From Methyloceanibacter sp. (GTDB lineage Bacteria > Pseudomonadota > Alphaproteobacteria > Rhizobiales > Methyloligellaceae), in NCBI GenBank assembly GCA_014380485.1, contig JACMJU010000077.1, forward strand, positions 1 through 36,048: a stretch of 36,048 nt of DNA. The letters are read 5' to 3'. Every line of letters starts with the position of its first letter. Within the stretch, counting starts at the first letter, position 1. Positions 2,348-16,100 of this stretch are shown here, piece by piece. The position numbers and the translations under genes are program-made. The notes beneath the pieces are model-generated. The model saw only the letters and a list, made by a program, of their open reading frames with translations. It had not been told where the DNA came from and searched no databases.

Positions 2348-3361
2348 TCAAATCTTCGAGGTGAGCGCGAGCACGAGGCGCTCGGCGAAGGCGCCTTCGA
2401 GATCGGGCGAGCGGCGTGATCGCCTGACGGCCTCCTGAATGATGGGCAGCACCTTCGCCAAGCGTCCCGCTCCCCATTTTCGGGAACGGGCAAGAAAGGC
2501 CTCCTCGCGCGTCTTGGGACGCGGCGGGGGCCGGAGCGAACGCAGCGCCTCCTCGGCTGGCCGCCCGCTCGCCACCGCCGCAGCCACGCGATGAAGCTGG
2601 ATGAAGTGCCGGCCGAGCGCGGATAGCGCCGACGCCCGATCCGTGCCGGAAGCGGCAAGACGTTGAAGCTCCGAGAGCGCGGCCTTGGCATCGCCGCCGC
2701 TCGTGGCGTAGACGAAGTTTTCGAGCGCCGTCTCGGCGGCGTCGCCGACAATGGCCTCGATGTCGTGATGGCTGACCGTCCCTTGCCCTTGGGCATAGAG
2801 CGCGAGCTTGACGACTTCGGCGCGCGACAAGGCTTGGTCGGCGCCGAGCCGCGTCATCAGATAGTCGCGCGCCTCTCTGTCGATGCCGAGACCGGCTCTG
2901 GCGAGTTCGGCGTCGATCAGCTCCGAGAGGAGGCTTTCATCGCCGTAACAAGGAAGCGCCACAGCACTTCTGTGGCCCTCGAACAATTTGCGCAAGCCCG
3001 AGTCGGGACGGAGATTGCCCGCCTCCACGATCAAGAAATTGGCGAAGTCGTCTGCGAGCAGCGTCTTGAGCGCCGGCACATCGAGCTTGGGCCCGGCGGT
3101 GACCCGCACGACGCTCTGTTCGGCGAACATCGGGATGGTCCGAAGCTCGACCTCGAGCCGCGCGGGGTCCTCGGCGAGATCGCGATCGTCGAGGCGAATG
3201 ATCTCGGTCTGCCCCTGCCCTCGTCGCGCGAAGATTTGGGCCAGCGCGCTGGCGCGCTCGGCCACCAGCCCGGCGTCGGGCCCGTAAACGAGCACGGCGC
3301 GGCAATCGGCCTTTGGCGTCTTGATGAAGCGCGCGACGGCTGACGACTTGTAGACGACCAT
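2348..3361 (-). CDS. holA: DNA polymerase III subunit delta
   Basis: Delta subunit of the clamp loader, which opens the beta sliding clamp. It has 337 residues against about 343 in E. coli. The N-terminal AAA+-like fold starts with VYGPDAGLVAERA (about residues 25-37), a degenerate nucleotide-binding region typical of delta, which does not hydrolyse ATP. LALYAQGQGTVSHHDIEAIVGDAAE (in part) at about 185-210 is the usual central domain signature, and the C-terminal collar domain is intact. It follows lptE by 44 bp. The leuS-lptE-holA order is common in Hyphomicrobiales, which supports the call although delta sequences are poorly conserved. Confidence 0.92.
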   Translation of the reverse strand: MVVYKSSAVARFIKTPKADCRAVLVYGPDAGLVAERASALAQIFARRGQGQTEIIRLDDRDLAEDPARLEVELRTIPMFAEQSVVRVTAGPKLDVPALKTLLADDFANFLIVEAGNLRPDSGLRKLFEGHRSAVALPCYGDESLLSELIDAELARAGLGIDREARDYLMTRLGADQALSRAEVVKLALYAQGQGTVSHHDIEAIVGDAAETALENFVYATSGGDAKAALSELQRLAASGTDRASALSALGRHFIQLHRVAAAVASGRPAEEALRSLRPPPRPKTREEAFLARSRKWGAGRLAKVLPIIQEAVRRSRRSPDLEGAFAERLVLALTSKI

Positions 3362-3405
3362 GCGGATATGGGCGGCAGCTAGACGAAGTGACGAGAGCGG
3401 GAAAC

Positions 3406-3927
3406 CTAAGCGGCGTTGCTAAGATAAGCCGCGACCTGGGTCATGATGCTCTCCGACACTGTACGGGCGGCGCGGTTCTCGGCGTCGTAGCGCGCCCGCA
3501 CATTGGCGAAGATTTCTTGGAACCGATTATAGGGCGCCCGCGAGACCGCTTTGCCCTGGAGCAGAACGGCGCCCTTGGCCACGTCGACGAGCTTGAAGCT
3601 CGCGTCGAGCTGGAAGACCTGGCCGGTCGCATCGCCGGTGATCTGCACCAACTGGTCGGTGACGCTTTCCTTGACGATGATGTCGAGCCGGTAGCGGGTC
3701 GGGCCCGCGTTGCCGCCGCCGGTATTGGCGAAAATCAGTTCGTTACGCAGTTTCTGGCCGACGCGGCCCGGAATCGGGGTGACATCGACCGCGGCCATGA
3801 CCTCCGCCAGCCTGGCGCCTCCGGCCGTGGTGCCCCCGTAAAGGGGCTGGAAGCCGCAGCCGGTCAGGGCCAAGGCGGCAAGCCCGGCCAACAGCGAGGC
3901 GAAGAGGGCAGAGCTACGCCACCACAT
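3406..3927 (-). CDS. lptE: LPS assembly lipoprotein LptE
   Basis: Outer-membrane lipoprotein that plugs LptD and delivers lipopolysaccharide to the cell surface. I chose the ATG at 3927, giving 173 residues: it yields a clean lipoprotein signal ([11 protein letters not shown]..., a hydrophobic stretch, then LTGC with Cys24 as the lipidated residue) followed by the family hallmark [10 protein letters not shown]. An upstream in-frame start at 3993 would add 22 residues that only overlap leuS. The gene overlaps the 3' end of leuS by 14 bp, implying translational coupling. The rest ([28 protein letters not shown]) fits the alphaproteobacterial LptE/DUF family. Confidence 0.9.
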
Positions 3928-8687: not shown

Positions 8688-9503
8688 TCACTCAATCACG
8701 AAATCGGCGATGACCGGGACATGGTCGGACGTGCGCGGCCAATCGCGCGCCTCGTCGAGAACCGTCATAGCGCGCGCCGCGCCGTCGAGAGCAGGCGTCA
8801 TCCAGATATGGTCGAGGCGCCGGCCGCGATTGGAGGCCCGCCAGTCGCGATTGCGGTAGCTCCACCAGGTGAACAGCTTCTTCTCGGCGGGAACATGTCG
8901 GCGCATCACGTCCACCCAGCCATGAGAGGCCTGGACGCGTTCGAGGCGCTCGACTTCGGCCGGAGTGTGGCTCACCACTTTGAGCAACTGCCGGTGCGAC
9001 CACACGTCGGTCGGAAGCGGCGCGACATTCAGATCGCCGGCCATGATCATGCGGATCTTGGTCCTTCCGCGCATGGCGCCGAACCAGGACGCGAGCGCCT
9101 CGAGGAATTCGAGTTTGTGGCGGAACTTCTCATTGAGCGCGGGGTCGGGTATGTCGCCGCCGGCCGGGACATAGACATTGTGCAGCACGAGAGGCTTCGC
9201 GCCCCCGCCCTCAAGCACGACGGACAGATGGCGCGCATGTCCGCGCCCGCAAATGTCGCGACGCTCCATGAGCGTGAAGGGAAGGCGGGAGAGCGTGGCG
9301 ACGCCGTGATACCCTTTCTGGCCCGCGACCGCGATATGGGGAAAGCCAAGCGCGCCAAGCTCGCGAGCGGGGAATTTTCCCTCGATGCATTTGATCTCTT
9401 GCAGGCAAAGCATGTCGGGCCGGTGAGCCCGCACGAAGCGGCTGACGAGATCGAGCCGGAGCCTGACGGAGTTGATGTTCCAGGTGGCGAGGCGGAACCG
9501 CAT
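8688..9503 (-). CDS. xthA: Exodeoxyribonuclease III family (AP endonuclease)
   Basis: Exonuclease III/AP endonuclease acting in base excision repair, 271 residues from the ATG at 9503 (MRFRLATWNINSVR). An in-frame upstream start at 9566 would add 21 unconserved residues. Catalytic signatures of the EEP fold are intact: N9/N11 in WNIN, E36 in LQEIK, GYHGVA, Y/N region HNVYVPAGGD, GDLNVAP, LDHIW and the terminal SDHVPV. About 100 bp upstream lies the terminator of small RNA unit A, transcribed in the same direction. Confidence 0.93.
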   Translation of the reverse strand: MRFRLATWNINSVRLRLDLVSRFVRAHRPDMLCLQEIKCIEGKFPARELGALGFPHIAVAGQKGYHGVATLSRLPFTLMERRDICGRGHARHLSVVLEGGGAKPLVLHNVYVPAGGDIPDPALNEKFRHKLEFLEALASWFGAMRGRTKIRMIMAGDLNVAPLPTDVWSHRQLLKVVSHTPAEVERLERVQASHGWVDVMRRHVPAEKKLFTWWSYRNRDWRASNRGRRLDHIWMTPALDGAARAMTVLDEARDWPRTSDHVPVIADFVIE

Positions 9504-9599: not shown

Positions 9600-9691
9600 A
9601 CAAAGAAGAAGCCCCGGAGACGGGGGGGACTCGGGGCTTCTCCGGTTCCGTTTGGGGGGAACCTGTGACGGGGGAGGGAAGCCCCGTCACT
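9600..9691 (-). ncRNA. Candidate small RNA A (C-rich loops, three stem-loops)
   Basis: About 92 nt on the minus strand, read from high to low coordinates. The first stem-loop (9690-9665) has the perfect 9-bp stem GTGACGGGG/CCCCGTCAC with loop CTTCCCTC. The second (9663-9644) has stem GGTTCC/GGAACC with loop CCCCAAAC. The third is a terminator (9640-9608) with stem GAAGCCCCG/CGGGGCTTC around a loop containing GTCCCCCCCGTC, followed by TTCTTTG. On the plus strand the last hairpin is not followed by T residues, so the minus orientation is preferred. Unit C (10611-10709) has the same three elements in the same order. The loops UUCCCUC(C) and C7 could pair with purine-rich ribosome-binding sites. 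No expression evidence is available. Confidence 0.6.
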
Positions 9692-9697
9692 GCAACC

Positions 9698-9725
9698 TAG
9701 ATAGCCAGCGCCGGGGCCGTTTCAA
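9698..9725 (-). promoter_or_regulatory. Promoter of small RNA A
   Basis: Minus strand: TTGAAA (9725-9720), 16-bp spacer, TATCTA (9703-9698), then 7 bp (GGTTGCA) to the first stem-loop. The 16-bp spacer and 7-bp discriminator are exactly those of unit C. Within GCTATCTA it also resembles the Caulobacter-type GCTANAWC element. Confidence 0.5.
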
Positions 9726-9771
9726 CCCCCGACACGACGAGGCTGCTTTTTCCAGTCCCAAGCGGTCGAAG

Positions 9772-9981
9772 CTACGTAAGCCAGCTGTCGAAGTCTGATA
9801 GGACGTGGTCAATGCGATGCTTGGCGTCGGCCAACGCCTCGTCCTTCTGTGGCGTCAAAATATGCAGAGTCGATTGCGGCAAGATGGGGAGGTTGGAGCG
9901 CGTGGGAGAGATACTGACGCACCAATTTGACCGCTCACGCCGGGGTTCAATCTGGTATCCGCGATAACGGTAGTATTCCAT
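9772..9981 (-). CDS. Small conserved-looking hypothetical protein (69 aa)
   Basis: A 69-residue protein starting MEYYRYRGYQIEP and containing WCVSISPTR, LPILPQSTL and a C-terminal helix (ALADAKHRIDHVLSD). I recall short proteins of this pattern (YRGYxIxP...WCVxIxPTR) in Bradyrhizobium-type genomes, where they are annotated only as hypothetical; I cannot verify this here. The start at 9981 has an AGGAG ribosome-binding site 7 bases upstream, half inside a small hairpin. No signal peptide, membrane segment or Cys cluster is present, and function is unknown. It lies between small RNA units B (upstream) and A (downstream), all on the minus strand. Confidence 0.65.
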   Translation of the reverse strand: MEYYRYRGYQIEPRRERSNWCVSISPTRSNLPILPQSTLHILTPQKDEALADAKHRIDHVLSDFDSWLT

Positions 9982-9985
9982 TGCC

Positions 9986-10003
9986 GGGCTCCTGTAAGAG
10001 CCC
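9986..10003 (-). promoter_or_regulatory. Hairpin covering the ribosome-binding site of the 69-aa gene
   Basis: Perfect 6-bp stem GGGCTC/GAGCCC with loop TTACAG (minus strand), 4 bases before the ATG at 9981. The AGGAG (9993-9989) lies half in the loop and half in the 3' arm, so folding would limit ribosome access. A regulatory role is inferred. Confidence 0.35.
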
Positions 10004-10053
10004 CCGTCGTTGACCTAACTCGCGCCAAGAAACATTGTTCAAGCCTCGCTTGC

Positions 10054-10242
10054 AAAAAAGAAGAAGCCCCGGTCGCAGGGGGAGCGCGGGGCTTCTTCGG
10101 AACTACCATGCAATCGAGTTCGGCGGGATGACGCAGGGGTCTGGGGGGTACCGCGCCGAACTCCTCGTATAACGCCATCGCCCCGATCTTGTTCCCCGGC
10201 CAAGTGGGTTCTCGTTAGGAGAATAAGGAATGTCAGTTTGGC
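10054..10242 (-). ncRNA. Candidate small RNA B (C-rich loops)
   Basis: About 189 nt on the minus strand from the promoter at 10276-10249. Near the 5' end a small hairpin (10223-10209, stem TTCTC/GAGAA) presents CTAAC within TCTCCTAACG, which contains the anti-Shine-Dalgarno core CUCCU. A long hairpin (10163-10116) has a perfect 10-bp stem GAGTTCGGCG/CGCCGAACTC and a 28-base loop containing CCCCCC and CCCC. The terminator (10098-10060) has a 12-bp stem GAAGAAGCCCCG/CGGGGCTTCTTC, an inner CGC/GCG, loop TCCCCCT and a perfect T6 tail. This is the strongest terminator of the array. The start point depends on the predicted promoter and could be wrong. Confidence 0.5.
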
Positions 10243-10248
10243 TTTTCG

Positions 10249-10276
10249 CCCATAACCCATCCTCCTTGGTGTTCAA
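10249..10276 (-). promoter_or_regulatory. Promoter of small RNA B
   Basis: Minus strand: TTGAAC (10276-10271), 16-bp spacer, TATGGG (10254-10249). The spacing equals that of units A and C. An alternative -10-like TATACG at 10171-10166 lies too close to the long stem-loop to serve it. Confidence 0.4.
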
Positions 10277-10610
10277 CCCCTCAAGTTCGGTTCCGTCCAG
10301 TCGTGCTCGCTTACGTCGACGAGTTGAGCCGCATTAGAGGCTACGGCAAAGGTCGGTCGGGAGTGATAAAACGCGTTGTCGAAAATGGCATTGCGCGAGA
10401 ACTAAGGCGCAACATTCCTCAAACAAAAAAACGCTGATGACATGGCGGAAAAGGAAGCTGCCAGTGATGACGAAGGCTAGAGCGAAGGGAGACGATTCAC
10501 AAAGAAGCGCTTCATCGACAAGGCCCGGCCTGAGAACTTGGCTGCGATGAAGACGAGGCTGCTTTTGAGAAGCGGCTAAGAAAGATCGCGAAGGCTCAGC
10601 CGCCGGCACC
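10277..10610. other. Interval between small RNA units B and C
   Basis: About 330 bases without an intact gene that I can support. The only recognisable content is the decayed small gene at 10442-10647 on the plus strand, and a 26-base segment (10482-10507) that is 23/26 identical to 9585-9608 beside unit A. The long minus-strand frame crossing it (10334-10720) runs through the stem-loops of unit C and looks accidental. Confidence 0.5.
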
Positions 10611-10647
10611 AGAAAAGAAGAAGCCCCGGAGGACGGGGGGGACCTGA
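10442..10647 (+). pseudogene. Decayed small protein gene (stop plus frameshift)
   Basis: Plus-strand fragments read like one short charged protein in pieces. The frame from ATG 10442 gives MAEKEAASDDEG and a TAG at 10478. The same frame continues with RRFTKKRFIDKAR. After five extra bases (cctga, 10529-10533) another frame continues ELGCDEDEAAFEKRLRKIAK and ends with a Lys/Pro-rich tail at TGA 10645-10647. The join FIDKAR-ELGCDEDEAAFE resembles C-terminal parts of small hypothetical proteins of Rhizobiales that I remember; this is not verified. If correct, the gene carries a stop codon and a 5-base insertion. Its last 28 bases overlap the terminator stem of small RNA C on the other strand. 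Confidence 0.4.
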
Positions 10648-10709
10648 ACCGGGGCTTCTGGGTCCTTATTGGGGGGACCTTTGTGATGGGAGAGGGAACG
10701 CCCATCACT
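10611..10709 (-). ncRNA. Candidate small RNA C (paralog of A)
   Basis: About 99 nt on the minus strand with the same three stem-loops as unit A. The first (10708-10683) has stem GTGATGGG/CCCATCAC and loop CGTTCCCTCT. The second (10679-10661) has stem GGTCC/GGACC and loop CCCCAATAA. The terminator (10658-10620) has the 10-bp stem GAAGCCCCGG/CCGGGGCTTC, an inner AGG/CCT and the loop core TCCCCCCCGT, followed by TTCTTTTCTGG. Relative to A, the fifth pair of the first stem changes from C-G to T-A with both sides altered, so pairing is kept. The second stem is one pair shorter. Conserved loop sequences on changing stems are what a structured RNA under selection would show. Confidence 0.65.
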
Positions 10710-10715
10710 CGAAAC

Positions 10716-10743
10716 GACATAGCACCTCAGGGATTGAGGACAA
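10716..10743 (-). promoter_or_regulatory. Promoter of small RNA C
   Basis: Minus strand: TTGTCC (10743-10738), 16-bp spacer, TATGTC (10721-10716) inside GCTATGTC (GCTANAWC-like), then 7 bp (GTTTCGA) to the first stem-loop. Geometry is identical to unit A although the spacer sequence is unrelated. Confidence 0.5.
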
Positions 10744-10770
10744 CCCCTCGGAGAATGAACTTTTTGTCAT

Positions 10771-10898
10771 GAAATAGAAGAAGCCCCGGCCAAGGTGGTT
10801 GACCGGGGCTTCCCAACCAAAGGGGTGATCGCAGGGTAACAATCACCGCGATGACCCATAGCACAACCCCGGCCAAGTGAGCCGGGGTTTTTCGTTAG
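10771..10898 (-). ncRNA. Candidate small RNA D
   Basis: Minus-strand unit of about 80-130 nt; the 5' end is uncertain. If it starts from the promoter at 10931-10904, it begins near TCTCCTAACG, shared with unit B, then a hairpin (10889-10865, stem AACCCCGGC/GCCGGGGTT). A second stem-loop (10847-10824) has stem GGTGAT/ATCACC and loop TGTTACCCTGCG, similar in place to the first stem-loops of A and C. The terminator (10812-10780) has the array stem GAAGCCCCGG/CCGGGGCTTC and a tail TTCTATTTC. A shorter transcript could start from GTGCTATGGG (10863-10855), which matches the -10 of unit C but lacks a good -35. On the plus strand the 10865-10889 hairpin is followed by T5 and could terminate an opposing transcript. 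Confidence 0.45.
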
Positions 10899-10903
10899 GA
10901 GAG

Positions 10904-10931
10904 CAGTTATGGACTGGGCTTACCTATTCAA
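10904..10931 (-). promoter_or_regulatory. Possible promoter of small RNA D
   Basis: Minus strand: TTGAAT (10931-10926), 16-bp spacer, TAACTG (10909-10904). The -35 and spacing match the other units; the -10 is weak. Confidence 0.3.
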
Positions 10932-11151
10932 CCTTCCGTTGGTTCTGGACGGTCGGAAAGACCCCCCTCGATCACAAGTGGTTCCCATCGGCCCCGGAGC
11001 TTCTTCTTTAACGTCAAGAGTGAGGCAATGTGCCGCGCAATCTTTAGGTCTAAGCGCGGATCGCCCCGCAGTGGGGTCCGCTCGGCCATCTGCCCCTCCC
11101 TGGTTTCAACCGGGGGTTAGATAGGGTTGGTTTATCCAGTATACGATCCCC
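10932..11151. other. Interval between small RNA units D and E
   Basis: No gene is supported here. On the minus strand there is a hairpin (11081-11056: GCGGA, CCCC, loop ACTGC, GGGG, 3-base bulge, TCCGC) and a C-rich segment TAACCCCCGG (near 11120-11111). They could be a further unit, but no U-tailed terminator follows. The plus-strand 71-codon frame (10909-11124) has a good-looking ribosome-binding site, but that site is the antisense image of the CUCCUAAC element of unit D and the protein is low-complexity, so I do not call it. Confidence 0.4.
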
Positions 11152-11302
11152 AAAAGAAAGGCGCCCAACCGCTGCGCGTGGTTGGGCGCCAGAAGCGCGT
11201 TTTTTTTCGCGCGCGTGCCGGGAGGGAAGCCGGCACGAGCGAACCACATCTTCGGCTAGACGGGGGGCACTACCGATGAAAAGCGACGTGGTCCGCTTCT
11301 AG
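11152..11302 (-). ncRNA. Candidate small RNA E (four stem-loops)
   Basis: About 151 nt on the minus strand. The first domain is closed by GCGGACCAC/GTGGTTCGC (11296-11288 with 11247-11239, one G-U pair). It holds an inner hairpin (11275-11253) whose loop TGCCCCCCGT shares CCCCCCGT with the terminator loops of A and C. The second stem-loop (11237-11214) has 8 bp CGTGCCGG/CCGGCACG and loop CTTCCCTC, identical to the first loop of A. The third is GCGCG/CGCGC around eight A residues (11212-11195). The terminator (11190-11160) has an 11-bp stem GGCGCCCAACC/GGTTGGGCGCC and tail TTTCTTTT. The terminator stem differs from A-D, while the loop motifs are shared. Confidence 0.55.
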
Positions 11303-11308
11303 GATCCA

Positions 11309-11474: not shown

Positions 11475-12323
11475 CTAGCGAAAGGGCTGGAAACCCTCCT
11501 TGGCGGTAAAGAAATCGGCCGCCACCTTACGTCCCGAAACGACGTCGTTAACTGTGACCCGCGTGGTTAATCCTTGTGCGTCGGTGATCGCCCACTCTTT
11601 AAGCTGAAGCTCCGCGCCGCTCTCGAAGATCAGCCTGATACTTCCCGCGGCGTCGCCCGACTTGTCTTCCAATGTGATGGCAAGCGTTCCCTCTTGGCTC
11701 TCGACCCCGGCAATGCGGGCATCGCGTGCGAGGTCGACCGCCTCGGAGAGAAGCAATCGGAAGGGCGTCGATTGGATCGGATATTTCTCCACGGTTCTTA
11801 AGTCGGAATCCTCGATGGCGAGATGACTGCCGTCAGCCACGATGCGCAGCGCGCTCGGCGGTGCGTAGTCGAATCTCACCTTTCCCGGTCTTTGCACATA
11901 GAAGCGCCCGGTGGAGTGCTTATCGGTGGAATCCACCTGCTCGAAGCTGCCTTGCAGATTGGTGATGTTGTTGAAATAGGCGTTGATGCGCTCAACGGCC
12001 TTGGCCTGCTCCAGTCCGATGAGAGGGGTCGCCGCTTGCGCCGCCTCGACGGCCGCCTCCCAGCCAGCTCCCTCGTCGACTGCGGCGGGAACGATCTCAT
12101 CGGAAGGGGACGGGGTTCTGGTCGCTCCGGTCTGATCGCCGGGCAAAGGCCCCGGCGCGTCTTCCGGTTCGGTCAGACCCTGTGGCGTCGTCGGAGGGCT
12201 TGGGGCGGGGGGTGTCTTCGCGACCGAGCTCGAAGCGTCCTGGGCAAGAGCGGTCCCGATCCAGAGAAAGATGGCGAGTGGCAGCCCAAAGAATAGCCCG
12301 GCGGCTGTGCGGCTAATCATCAA
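11475..12323 (-). CDS. lolA: Outer-membrane lipoprotein carrier LolA family protein
   Basis: Periplasmic carrier that moves lipoproteins from LolCDE to the outer membrane (family role). The protein is 282 residues, longer than the roughly 200 of E. coli LolA. It has a signal peptide (MMISRTAAGLFFG..., hydrophobic core, cleavage near TALAQ, residues 26-28). A Pro/Thr/Glu-rich linker covers about 30-95, and the LolA domain runs from about 105 (AKAVERINAYFNNI, LQGSFEQVD) to the end. RFYVQRPGKVRFDYAPPS is the family core. The domain continues to FTAKEGFQPFR, so it is complete. It follows ftsK by 102 bp on the same strand; ftsK-lolA linkage is usual in Hyphomicrobiales. Small RNA unit E starts about 140 bp downstream. 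Confidence 0.88.
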   Translation of the reverse strand: MMISRTAAGLFFGLPLAIFLWIGTALAQDASSSVAKTPPAPSPPTTPQGLTEPEDAPGPLPGDQTGATRTPSPSDEIVPAAVDEGAGWEAAVEAAQAATPLIGLEQAKAVERINAYFNNITNLQGSFEQVDSTDKHSTGRFYVQRPGKVRFDYAPPSALRIVADGSHLAIEDSDLRTVEKYPIQSTPFRLLLSEAVDLARDARIAGVESQEGTLAITLEDKSGDAAGSIRLIFESGAELQLKEWAITDAQGLTTRVTVNDVVSGRKVAADFFTAKEGFQPFR

Positions 12324-14894: not shown

Positions 14895-16100
14895 TCAACC
14901 CAATATGGCGACGACCCGCATCAAGGCCTCGCGTGTGGTATCCGCGTCATGCACGAGCGCGATCCTGATGTAGTCGGTACCCGGATTGAGGCCATCGGGT
15001 TCGGCTTGTGCGAGATAGGTGCCCGGCAGCACTCTGACACCACACCCTTTCCAAAGGGTTTTCGCGGCCTCCTCCCCGCCCCCAAAAACGGCCATATTGA
15101 GCCAAAGAAAGAAGCTTCCTCTCGGGTGCCGGTAGCCATACCGGCCCTTAAGAAGCTCATCGGCGACGGCAAAATTCCGCCGGTACAGCGCCCGCCCCTC
15201 CTCGACATGAGGCTCGTCGGCCCAGGCCTTGGCCGAGACCTGCTGCACGGGGAGCGGCACTTGCGGGCAGGCGACGTTGCGGAAACGGCCGTAGGCGGCG
15301 ATGAAAGCGGGATCCCCGGCGATGAAGCCCGATCGCAGTCCCGGCAGCCCCGAGCGCTTGGACAGGGACTGGAACGACGCGACATTGGCGAGGCTCCCGG
15401 TCTCGGCGAACGCGGTCTCGAGCGCTCCCGGAGGAGGGCCATCGTCATAGATCTCGGAATAGCATTCGTCGGCGAACAGGAGAAAATCGAAGCGGCGCGC
15501 AAGGGCGACCGCCCGGGCAAGATAAGAACGGTCGGCAACCGCCCCTTGAGGGTTGGACGGCGTGCAGAGATAGAAGGCGACGGTGCGCGCGAGCAGCGCC
15601 TCGTCAATGGAATCGAGGCTTGGCAGGAAGCCGTCTTCTGCTCGCGCCCGGAGGAACGCGGGGCTAGCTCCTGAAGCCGCCGCTGCCGCTGCATAGGCCT
15701 GATAGAAGGGATTTGGGATCAGGACCACCGGGTCCGCCGCCGGCTTTCGCGCCATTGCCGGAAAGATCGCCGAGAACAATCCCTCGCGCGATCCGTTGAG
15801 CGGCAGCACGTGCTGCTCGGCATCGATCTTGCCCTTGAGGATCGGATAGCGCCGCCCAATCCAATCGGCGATGGCGTTGCGGAGCGGGGCGATGCCTTTG
15901 ATCGGCGGGTAGCGGCCGAACGCGCCGAGATGCTCCTGTAGCGTCGGCCCGAGGAAGGACGGTATGAGCGCTTTGGGCTCGCCGAGCGAAAGATCGATGG
16001 GACGAGCGCCCGGCGCGAGTCCCTCGAGCAAATTGGCAAGACGCGCAAACGGCGAACGGACCAGATCGTCGAGGGCGGAGGGCGTGACGTAAGGGGACAT
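14895..16100 (-). CDS. Class I/II PLP-dependent aminotransferase
   Basis: Fold-type I aminotransferase of 401 residues. The Schiff-base lysine is K248 in SLSKRSGLPGLRSG. Other landmarks are LSLGEP (38-43), the substrate-loop NGSREGLF, the PLP-ring segment CTPSNPQGAV with N183, the aspartate of FADECYSEIY and the C-terminal YIRIALV. It resembles proteins annotated as succinyldiaminopimelate transaminase (DapC) beside ftsK in related genomes, but substrate specificity cannot be read from the sequence. The start codon at 16100 is a GTG or ATG-type start just after a short leader. The amtB terminator lies about 60 bp upstream. Confidence 0.88.
   Translation of the reverse strand: MSPYVTPSALDDLVRSPFARLANLLEGLAPGARPIDLSLGEPKALIPSFLGPTLQEHLGAFGRYPPIKGIAPLRNAIADWIGRRYPILKGKIDAEQHVLPLNGSREGLFSAIFPAMARKPAADPVVLIPNPFYQAYAAAAAASGASPAFLRARAEDGFLPSLDSIDEALLARTVAFYLCTPSNPQGAVADRSYLARAVALARRFDFLLFADECYSEIYDDGPPPGALETAFAETGSLANVASFQSLSKRSGLPGLRSGFIAGDPAFIAAYGRFRNVACPQVPLPVQQVSAKAWADEPHVEEGRALYRRNFAVADELLKGRYGYRHPRGSFFLWLNMAVFGGGEEAAKTLWKGCGVRVLPGTYLAQAEPDGLNPGTDYIRIALVHDADTTREALMRVVAILG

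Follow-up and report, generated by a model that had tools for sequence, protein, structure and literature searches.

The interval between xthA and lolA in a 36,048-nt stretch of Methyloceanibacter sp. DNA (GenBank assembly GCA_014380485.1, contig JACMJU010000077.1, positions 1 to 36,048; here called the window) raises the question of what kind of element fills it. A preliminary description, made from the sequence alone, had read the interval as an array of five co-directional minus-strand small RNA (sRNA) genes, A to E, that arose by lineage-specific expansion and carry loops complementary to Shine-Dalgarno sequences. The array lies between xthA and lolA, with ftsK on the far side of lolA. The assembly to which the window belongs, as contig C129, measures 1.88 Mb and is 86% complete; the closest named relative of the window, judged by xthA, is the metagenome-assembled genome Hyphomicrobiales bacterium palsa_904 (L033; 78% identity). 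The array is composite: part ancestral sRNA (unit E) and part genus-level expansion (A type). On balance we consider it probable, with some reservation, that the interval holds a stand-alone conserved sRNA gene, E, beside genus-specific multi-copy sRNAs (A and C, with D and weakly B as shortened relatives), which most likely act in trans via C-rich seeds on G-rich mRNA leaders.

Homology of the units was assessed in three ways: (i) a blastn-type DNA search of 101 genomes; (ii) a covariance model, R1, built from 11 A-type sequences (A included, C and E not); and (iii) a covariance model, R2, built from 21 E cores (that of the window included). The E-values of both models are rough, as calibration was short. 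The samples comprised 17 genomes of the genus, 13 of other members of the family, 249 of the order, and 288 other genomes of the class, including three or more from the order. By DNA search the E region was matched in 17 of 17 genus genomes, as well as in others of the family and order. Of the 249 order genomes, R2 recovered E in 72, which represent 43 of 111 genera; 71 of these 72 carry a single copy. The 288 class genomes gave no match; the order-wide and class-wide scans used stricter filters, and these counts, like the zero of 242 given for R1 below, may miss weak members. Among 26 named xthA loci, clear R2 matches were obtained in four (palsa_904, Hyphomicrobiaceae UBA2767, Kaistia dalseonensis and K. 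soli; the two Kaistia copies, with 52.0 and 33.4 bits respectively, are flanked by lolA and xthA), and Mesorhizobium sp. BR1-1-16 has a fragment of E at a contig end (E 0.0042). The remaining 21, mostly Microvirga, gave no R2 match below E 0.2, some of these loci being so short that they may stop before the position of E. An order-wide, essentially single-copy occurrence does not fit a diverged tandem copy of a local family, as E had been described.

The architecture of E is a first stem-loop (SL1) with the loop UAGUGCCCCCCGUCUAG, a second (SL2) with the loop (C)UUCCCUC, and a terminator. The 17-nt SL1 loop is near-invariant and closed by CGG/CCG, and the outer stem is rewritten between genomes (e.g. 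AGCGGACCACAUC/GAUGUGGUUCGCU versus AGGCGGCGUC/GACGCCGCCU); the UUCCCUC loop is likewise near-invariant on covarying stems. In two sequence-only alignments, the cells with two-sided changes numbered 79 (24.4 in shuffles) and 28 (8.2 in shuffles), values that none of 500 shuffles equalled in either case, and pairing was lost when the structure was slid along the alignment. Upstream of E, all 23 aligned loci share an unchanged TTGAA box.

The surroundings of E were compared at 30 loci from the order scan. The lolA gene precedes E on the same strand in 26 of them; xthA follows E in 18, falls outside the locus in the window's own case, and was undetected within about 1.5 kb in 11. At two loci (L147 and L150) xthA follows E and lolA was undetected, and at L157, one of the 11, E is followed by a convergent, Pfam-confirmed cNMP-binding gene. 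Within the genus, inserts separate E from xthA in the window genome, G011, G015 and G016, and the contig of G001 ends at this point. Because xthA was undetected near E in 11 of the 30 loci, E is an independent gene.

The A family has a much narrower distribution. The DNA search matched the A region in genus genomes alone, often on another contig. R1 found 32 copies in 16 of the 17 genus genomes (1–6 per positive genome), none in the 13 other family members and none in the 242 order genomes outside the genus; the six order genomes matched out of 249 all belong to the genus. Lineage-specific expansion thus describes the A/C type and not E. Searching other genomes with covariance models, which the preliminary description had put forward as a check, returned related structured copies of both kinds. 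Each A-family copy has three hairpins, with loops of the UUCCCUC, CCCCCC and CCCCCCGU types. In an alignment of 36 rows fitted to the model (three of them dubious, namely E itself and two odd matches), two-sided changes are seen at 24 of 28 pairs, and the paired fraction of cells is 96.8%, as compared with 82.1% in shuffles; C-rich motifs, defined by loose patterns, were present in 35, 34 and 33 rows at the three loops. A tree of 33 copies (the 36 matches less the dubious three) is mostly weakly supported and dates nothing. One subgroup, with the hairpin GGAGUUUCCCUCCUCC, is present as a further copy in six genus genomes (L074, L075, L119, L123, L124 and L125).

The genomic places of the A family change within the genus. 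Ten genomes carry a copy in the gap that separates a Bax1-I gene from a DUF2794 gene convergent with it (families assigned by Pfam at one locus), and in an eleventh, G010, a copy lies by the Bax1-I gene and the contig ends before DUF2794. In the window genome the Bax1-I/DUF2794 pair is 68 bp apart without a copy; A and C stand beside E instead. Copies beside E also occur in G011 (three R1 copies and a D), G015 (one) and G016 (one, C-like). Mobile transfer is suggested by two cases. At L059 (G011) a copy (3055–3134) overlaps the 3′ end of a phage-type integrase open reading frame (ORF; 3046–3801) with arm-binding and SAM-like domains, in which the catalytic domain was undetected; the sRNA gene is a possible attachment site there. 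The phage-like IMG/VR contig L099 carries a genuine copy at its end, together with resolvase, terminase and ParB/methylase genes. A second pattern search of IMG/VR for phage carriers of the A family gave none, and L242 and L243, recovered along with L099 by a looser pattern, have no R1 match and were taken as chance.

The features of the locus are collected in Table 1. Folding of A, C and E gave z-scores of −6.59, −6.15 and −5.96, with none of 200 shuffles folding equally well for any of the three; the values were −5.59 for B and, for D, −5.29 in the short and −6.97 in the longer version. Between 8800 and 12000, both strands together, 12 terminator-like sites were counted (4.1±2.2 in shuffles). 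The loops of A are CUUCCCUC, CCCCAAAC (within GGUUCCCCCCAAACGGAACC) and the terminator loop UCCCCCCCGU. As to the repeated loop motifs, CCCCCCGT is confined within the window to A, C and E, all on the minus strand, and CTTCCCTCC to A and E; UUCCCUC is shared by A, C and E as described, yet is less specific, as it occurs at five further places. From folding, conservation and covariation, A, C and E are very likely real RNA genes.

Table 1. Positions of the array units and the flanking genes in the window.
Feature	Position	Strand	Description	Covariance model score
xthA	8688..9503	-	flanking gene; Exo_endo_phos, PF03372	
A	9603..9692	-	very likely sRNA gene with three hairpins, genus family; homologues in genus genomes	R1 92.2 bits (A in R1 training set)
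B	about 10055..10169	-	two hairpins with C-rich loops, weakly supported as a unit; 5′ limit estimated	R1 28.0 bits, E 0.0023
C	10612..10710	-	very likely second member of the genus family	R1 43.7 bits, E 5.6e-6 (C outside R1 training set)
D	about 10771..10855	-	candidate shortened relative, one C-containing hairpin and terminator; 5′ limit estimated	R1 23.4 bits, E 0.013
E	11153..11303	-	very likely sRNA gene, order-wide	R2 105.4 bits (E in R2 training set)
lolA	11475..12320	-	flanking gene; PF03548	

The other two units fared less well, and their 5′ ends as previously drawn fall outside the conserved parts. For D, homologues were found at two loci of genome G011, L070 and L077 (88% over window positions 10866–10778 and 85% over 10853–10776), which leave the 5′ part (10898–10867) uncovered; these relatives in another genome partly support D as an sRNA gene. 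B is weakly supported: its blastn homologues are confined to the terminator part (10095–10052), a sequence that recurs elsewhere in the window's genome and in other genomes, and a B-like unit in L092 (G016) scored 17.5 bits with R1 (E 0.31). A CUUCCUAAC-type motif (CUCCUAAC, at 10221 and 10901), put forward as a loop seed shared by B and D, was rejected. Its two occurrences fall in 5′ parts that are not conserved, and it reads antisense to an RBS-like plus-strand repeat, GTTAGGAGA (RBS, ribosome-binding site), which is duplicated upstream of short plus-strand ORFs starting at 10230 and 10909. The duplicated plus-strand stretch as a whole (CCCCGGCCAAGTG...CGTTAGGAGA) lies at 10194–10222 and 10867–10902, upstream of the same two ORFs, and its second copy includes a plus-strand terminator-like hairpin. 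Between A and B, a small minus-strand ORF (9772–9981; 69 aa) has no Pfam match; since a 64% homologue is present in G016 (L093), it is probably a real small protein gene. In several A/C-type copies without an obvious −35 box (L064, L070, L077 and L092), a GTGnTATG motif inside a short palindrome (e.g. AGTGGTATGCCACT) was seen by eye before the first hairpin, and may perhaps be a differently controlled promoter.

No unit matches a family catalogued in Rfam 15, in line with the earlier supposition. A search of the window with Rfam 15 at gathering score gave tRNA only, and at a relaxed threshold the array region gave nothing better than E 0.36. Rfam contains the suhB family; neither suhB/MmgR nor any other Rfam sRNA family matches an array unit at gathering score. 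Seven loci were scanned in addition, all bearing E or A copies save the copy-free L161; these gave BjrC174 only, outside the A copy. This BjrC174 match (RF02355; L067:3612–3820, 57.9 bits, cut-off 45) lies just past DUF2794, adjoining the A copy of G005, and also bears runs of six or more C; the equivalent locus of the window genome (L161:2541–2745, G000:C113) has a sub-threshold match of 34.1 bits (E 0.0011). The highest Rfam bit score on A was that of 6C RNA (RF01066), which likewise has hairpins with C runs in the loops, and 27.1 bits (E 0.62) is well short of its cut-off of 47. A lolA/xthA-linked sRNA of Hyphomicrobiales was not found in the open PMC literature covered here; most subscription papers and all supplements fall outside that scope, so E may be published.

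Several described sRNAs resemble the units in kind, as far as the portions of the cited papers considered here go. The alpha-r14/NfeR1 RNAs of Rhizobiales (RFMSmelA075, RFMSmelA099) are multi-hairpin RNAs in which a constant C-rich loop sits on stems that vary; they are multi-copy and in part lie near mobile elements (PMC3927594; PMC10746234). The A family shares the multi-hairpin form, the constant loops on variable stems and the multiple copies, whereas E, with one copy in 71 of the 72 genomes that have it, lacks this combination. The constant alpha-r14 loop CCUCCUCCC is absent from the hairpin loops of the array, which are of the UUCCCUC, CCCCCC(A) and CCCCCCGU types; CCTCCTCCC occurs in the window only at 15068 (+) and 852 (−), outside the array, and membership was rejected on the ground of the loop. 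The sX13 RNA of Xanthomonas (RF02232) has three stems and three C-rich loops and acts on mRNAs with G-rich motifs (PMC3771888). A-type units are also three-stemmed with C-rich loops, but A scored 16.3 bits with this model (cut-off 50, E 4.3). The 5′ loop of GsrN, from Caulobacter, contains six consecutive C residues that pair with a G-tract of the katG leader; GsrN activates katG, and its homologues typically lie near general stress regulators, C. crescentus excepted (PMC5869019), whereas E sits by lolA/xthA. EcpR1 is a Rhizobiales-wide sRNA with a strongly conserved loop, UCCGCCGCAUCU, encoded downstream of divK-pleD (PMC4414408); the loops and flanks of E differ from both. PmaR also has a C-rich target-binding loop (PMC6234868). 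The array families have the stable hairpins and conserved C-rich apical loops of C-rich-loop trans-acting sRNAs in general, and are best read as working like alpha-r14, sX13 or GsrN, as members of none of those tested.

By analogy with sX13, GsrN and alpha-r14/NfeR1, each array RNA, the transcription of which we infer, would be a string of stable GC-rich hairpins with apical loops exposing short C-rich seeds. The partners of these seeds, in trans, would most likely be G-rich segments in mRNA leaders, in many cases at the RBS or close to it, and the pairing would most likely hinder translation. The proposed anti-Shine-Dalgarno complementarity was assessed on 251 crudely called ATG genes in 400 kb of the relative G014. 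In seven of eight tests the loop complements were more frequent at RBSs than in any of seven control windows, and one test gave a tie. The following observations weigh against the preferred reading. Permuted loops equalled the observed RBS value in 18–135 of 200 trials; because they often do as well, the fit of the loops to G-rich RBSs is explained by composition, and specificity for the Shine-Dalgarno sequence is unsupported. A 12-nt match of the E loop to the leader of one G014 gene (MFS-transporter-like by inspection) was rejected as a target, as it has one G fewer in G004 and G005, is missing from the other six leaders inspected, and sits in an apparent −10 box (TGTGCTAGAC); moreover, TAGACGGGGG was counted 50 times in the 17 genus genomes, against 78 for a reversed control. 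A strict sigma-70 scan found no promoter, where promoter pairs had been described earlier. Two measures of covariation in E were weaker: shuffles equalled the further pair types of the first alignment in 72 of 500 cases, and the pairs with two-sided change of the second in nine of 500. Finally, R2 fails to recognise A or C, its best other match in the array being 10.8 bits (E 0.74).

The relation between E and the A family was examined by running R1, built without E, on 29 E loci (86.5 kb). It gave 20 matches up to E 1 (16.6–37.1 bits), all on the SL2-terminator part of E, and no match in the other nine loci. In the preferred reading the A family probably shares ancestry with the 3′ half of E. 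That the two are unrelated and converged on similar C-rich hairpins, standing side by side by chance, has close to an even chance of being right: besides the failure of R2, A has no counterpart of SL1 of E, and UUCCCUC-type loops and GC-rich terminators are simple enough to arise repeatedly. The confinement of the R1 matches to one part of E and the fact that the array adjoins E speak for kinship. We offer only as a tentative scenario, the less probable course, that E is the ancestral regulator, order-wide and with C-rich loops, and that duplication of its 3′ half within a single genus gave rise to a compact three-seed family. Copies would have been captured next to the parent gene and also moved to other places, in part by integrases and prophages, so that a new layer of competing seeds arose beside the old one.

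Different roles for the same sequences were also considered. Instead of meeting mRNA leaders, the C-rich loops could be bound by a protein or serve to titrate some other RNA; the loops are far better conserved than any target found here, and multi-copy arrays suit titration. Nothing direct opposes this, except that the C-rich-loop sRNAs tested in the cited work, as far as covered, act on mRNAs, and we hold it to be unlikely. Slightly harder to sustain is the view of the A-type copies as scattered palindromic repeats or remnants of mobile elements, equipped with terminators but lacking an RNA function. They are indeed multi-copy and change places, with one at an integrase ORF, one on a phage-like contig and a tree of low resolution; compensatory changes in all helices under constant C-rich loops, and the retention by 11 genomes of a copy at one shared locus, that of Bax1-I, make it quite improbable. 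A cis-acting leader or attenuator of xthA would explain why E, or A where it abuts the gene, lies directly upstream on the same strand in many genomes, with matched ends of E and xthA 82–123 bp apart in 12 genus genomes. It would have to accommodate the loci at which xthA was undetected, the convergent gene at L157, the 1.5 kb with other units between E and xthA in the window, and the A copies enclosed by Bax1-I and DUF2794 in 10 genomes; E as an xthA leader was rejected, and we give the idea very little credence.

Both families are without an Rfam 15 match, although their kind, the C-rich-loop sRNA, is already known. E is an RNA of many Hyphomicrobiales families, and may thus be a far-reaching regulator that catalogues have missed, although the order is well studied. 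The A family is a case of a bacterial sRNA gaining copies and new locations inside a single genus, next to what may be its parent gene, and so allows the birth of sRNA families to be compared directly.

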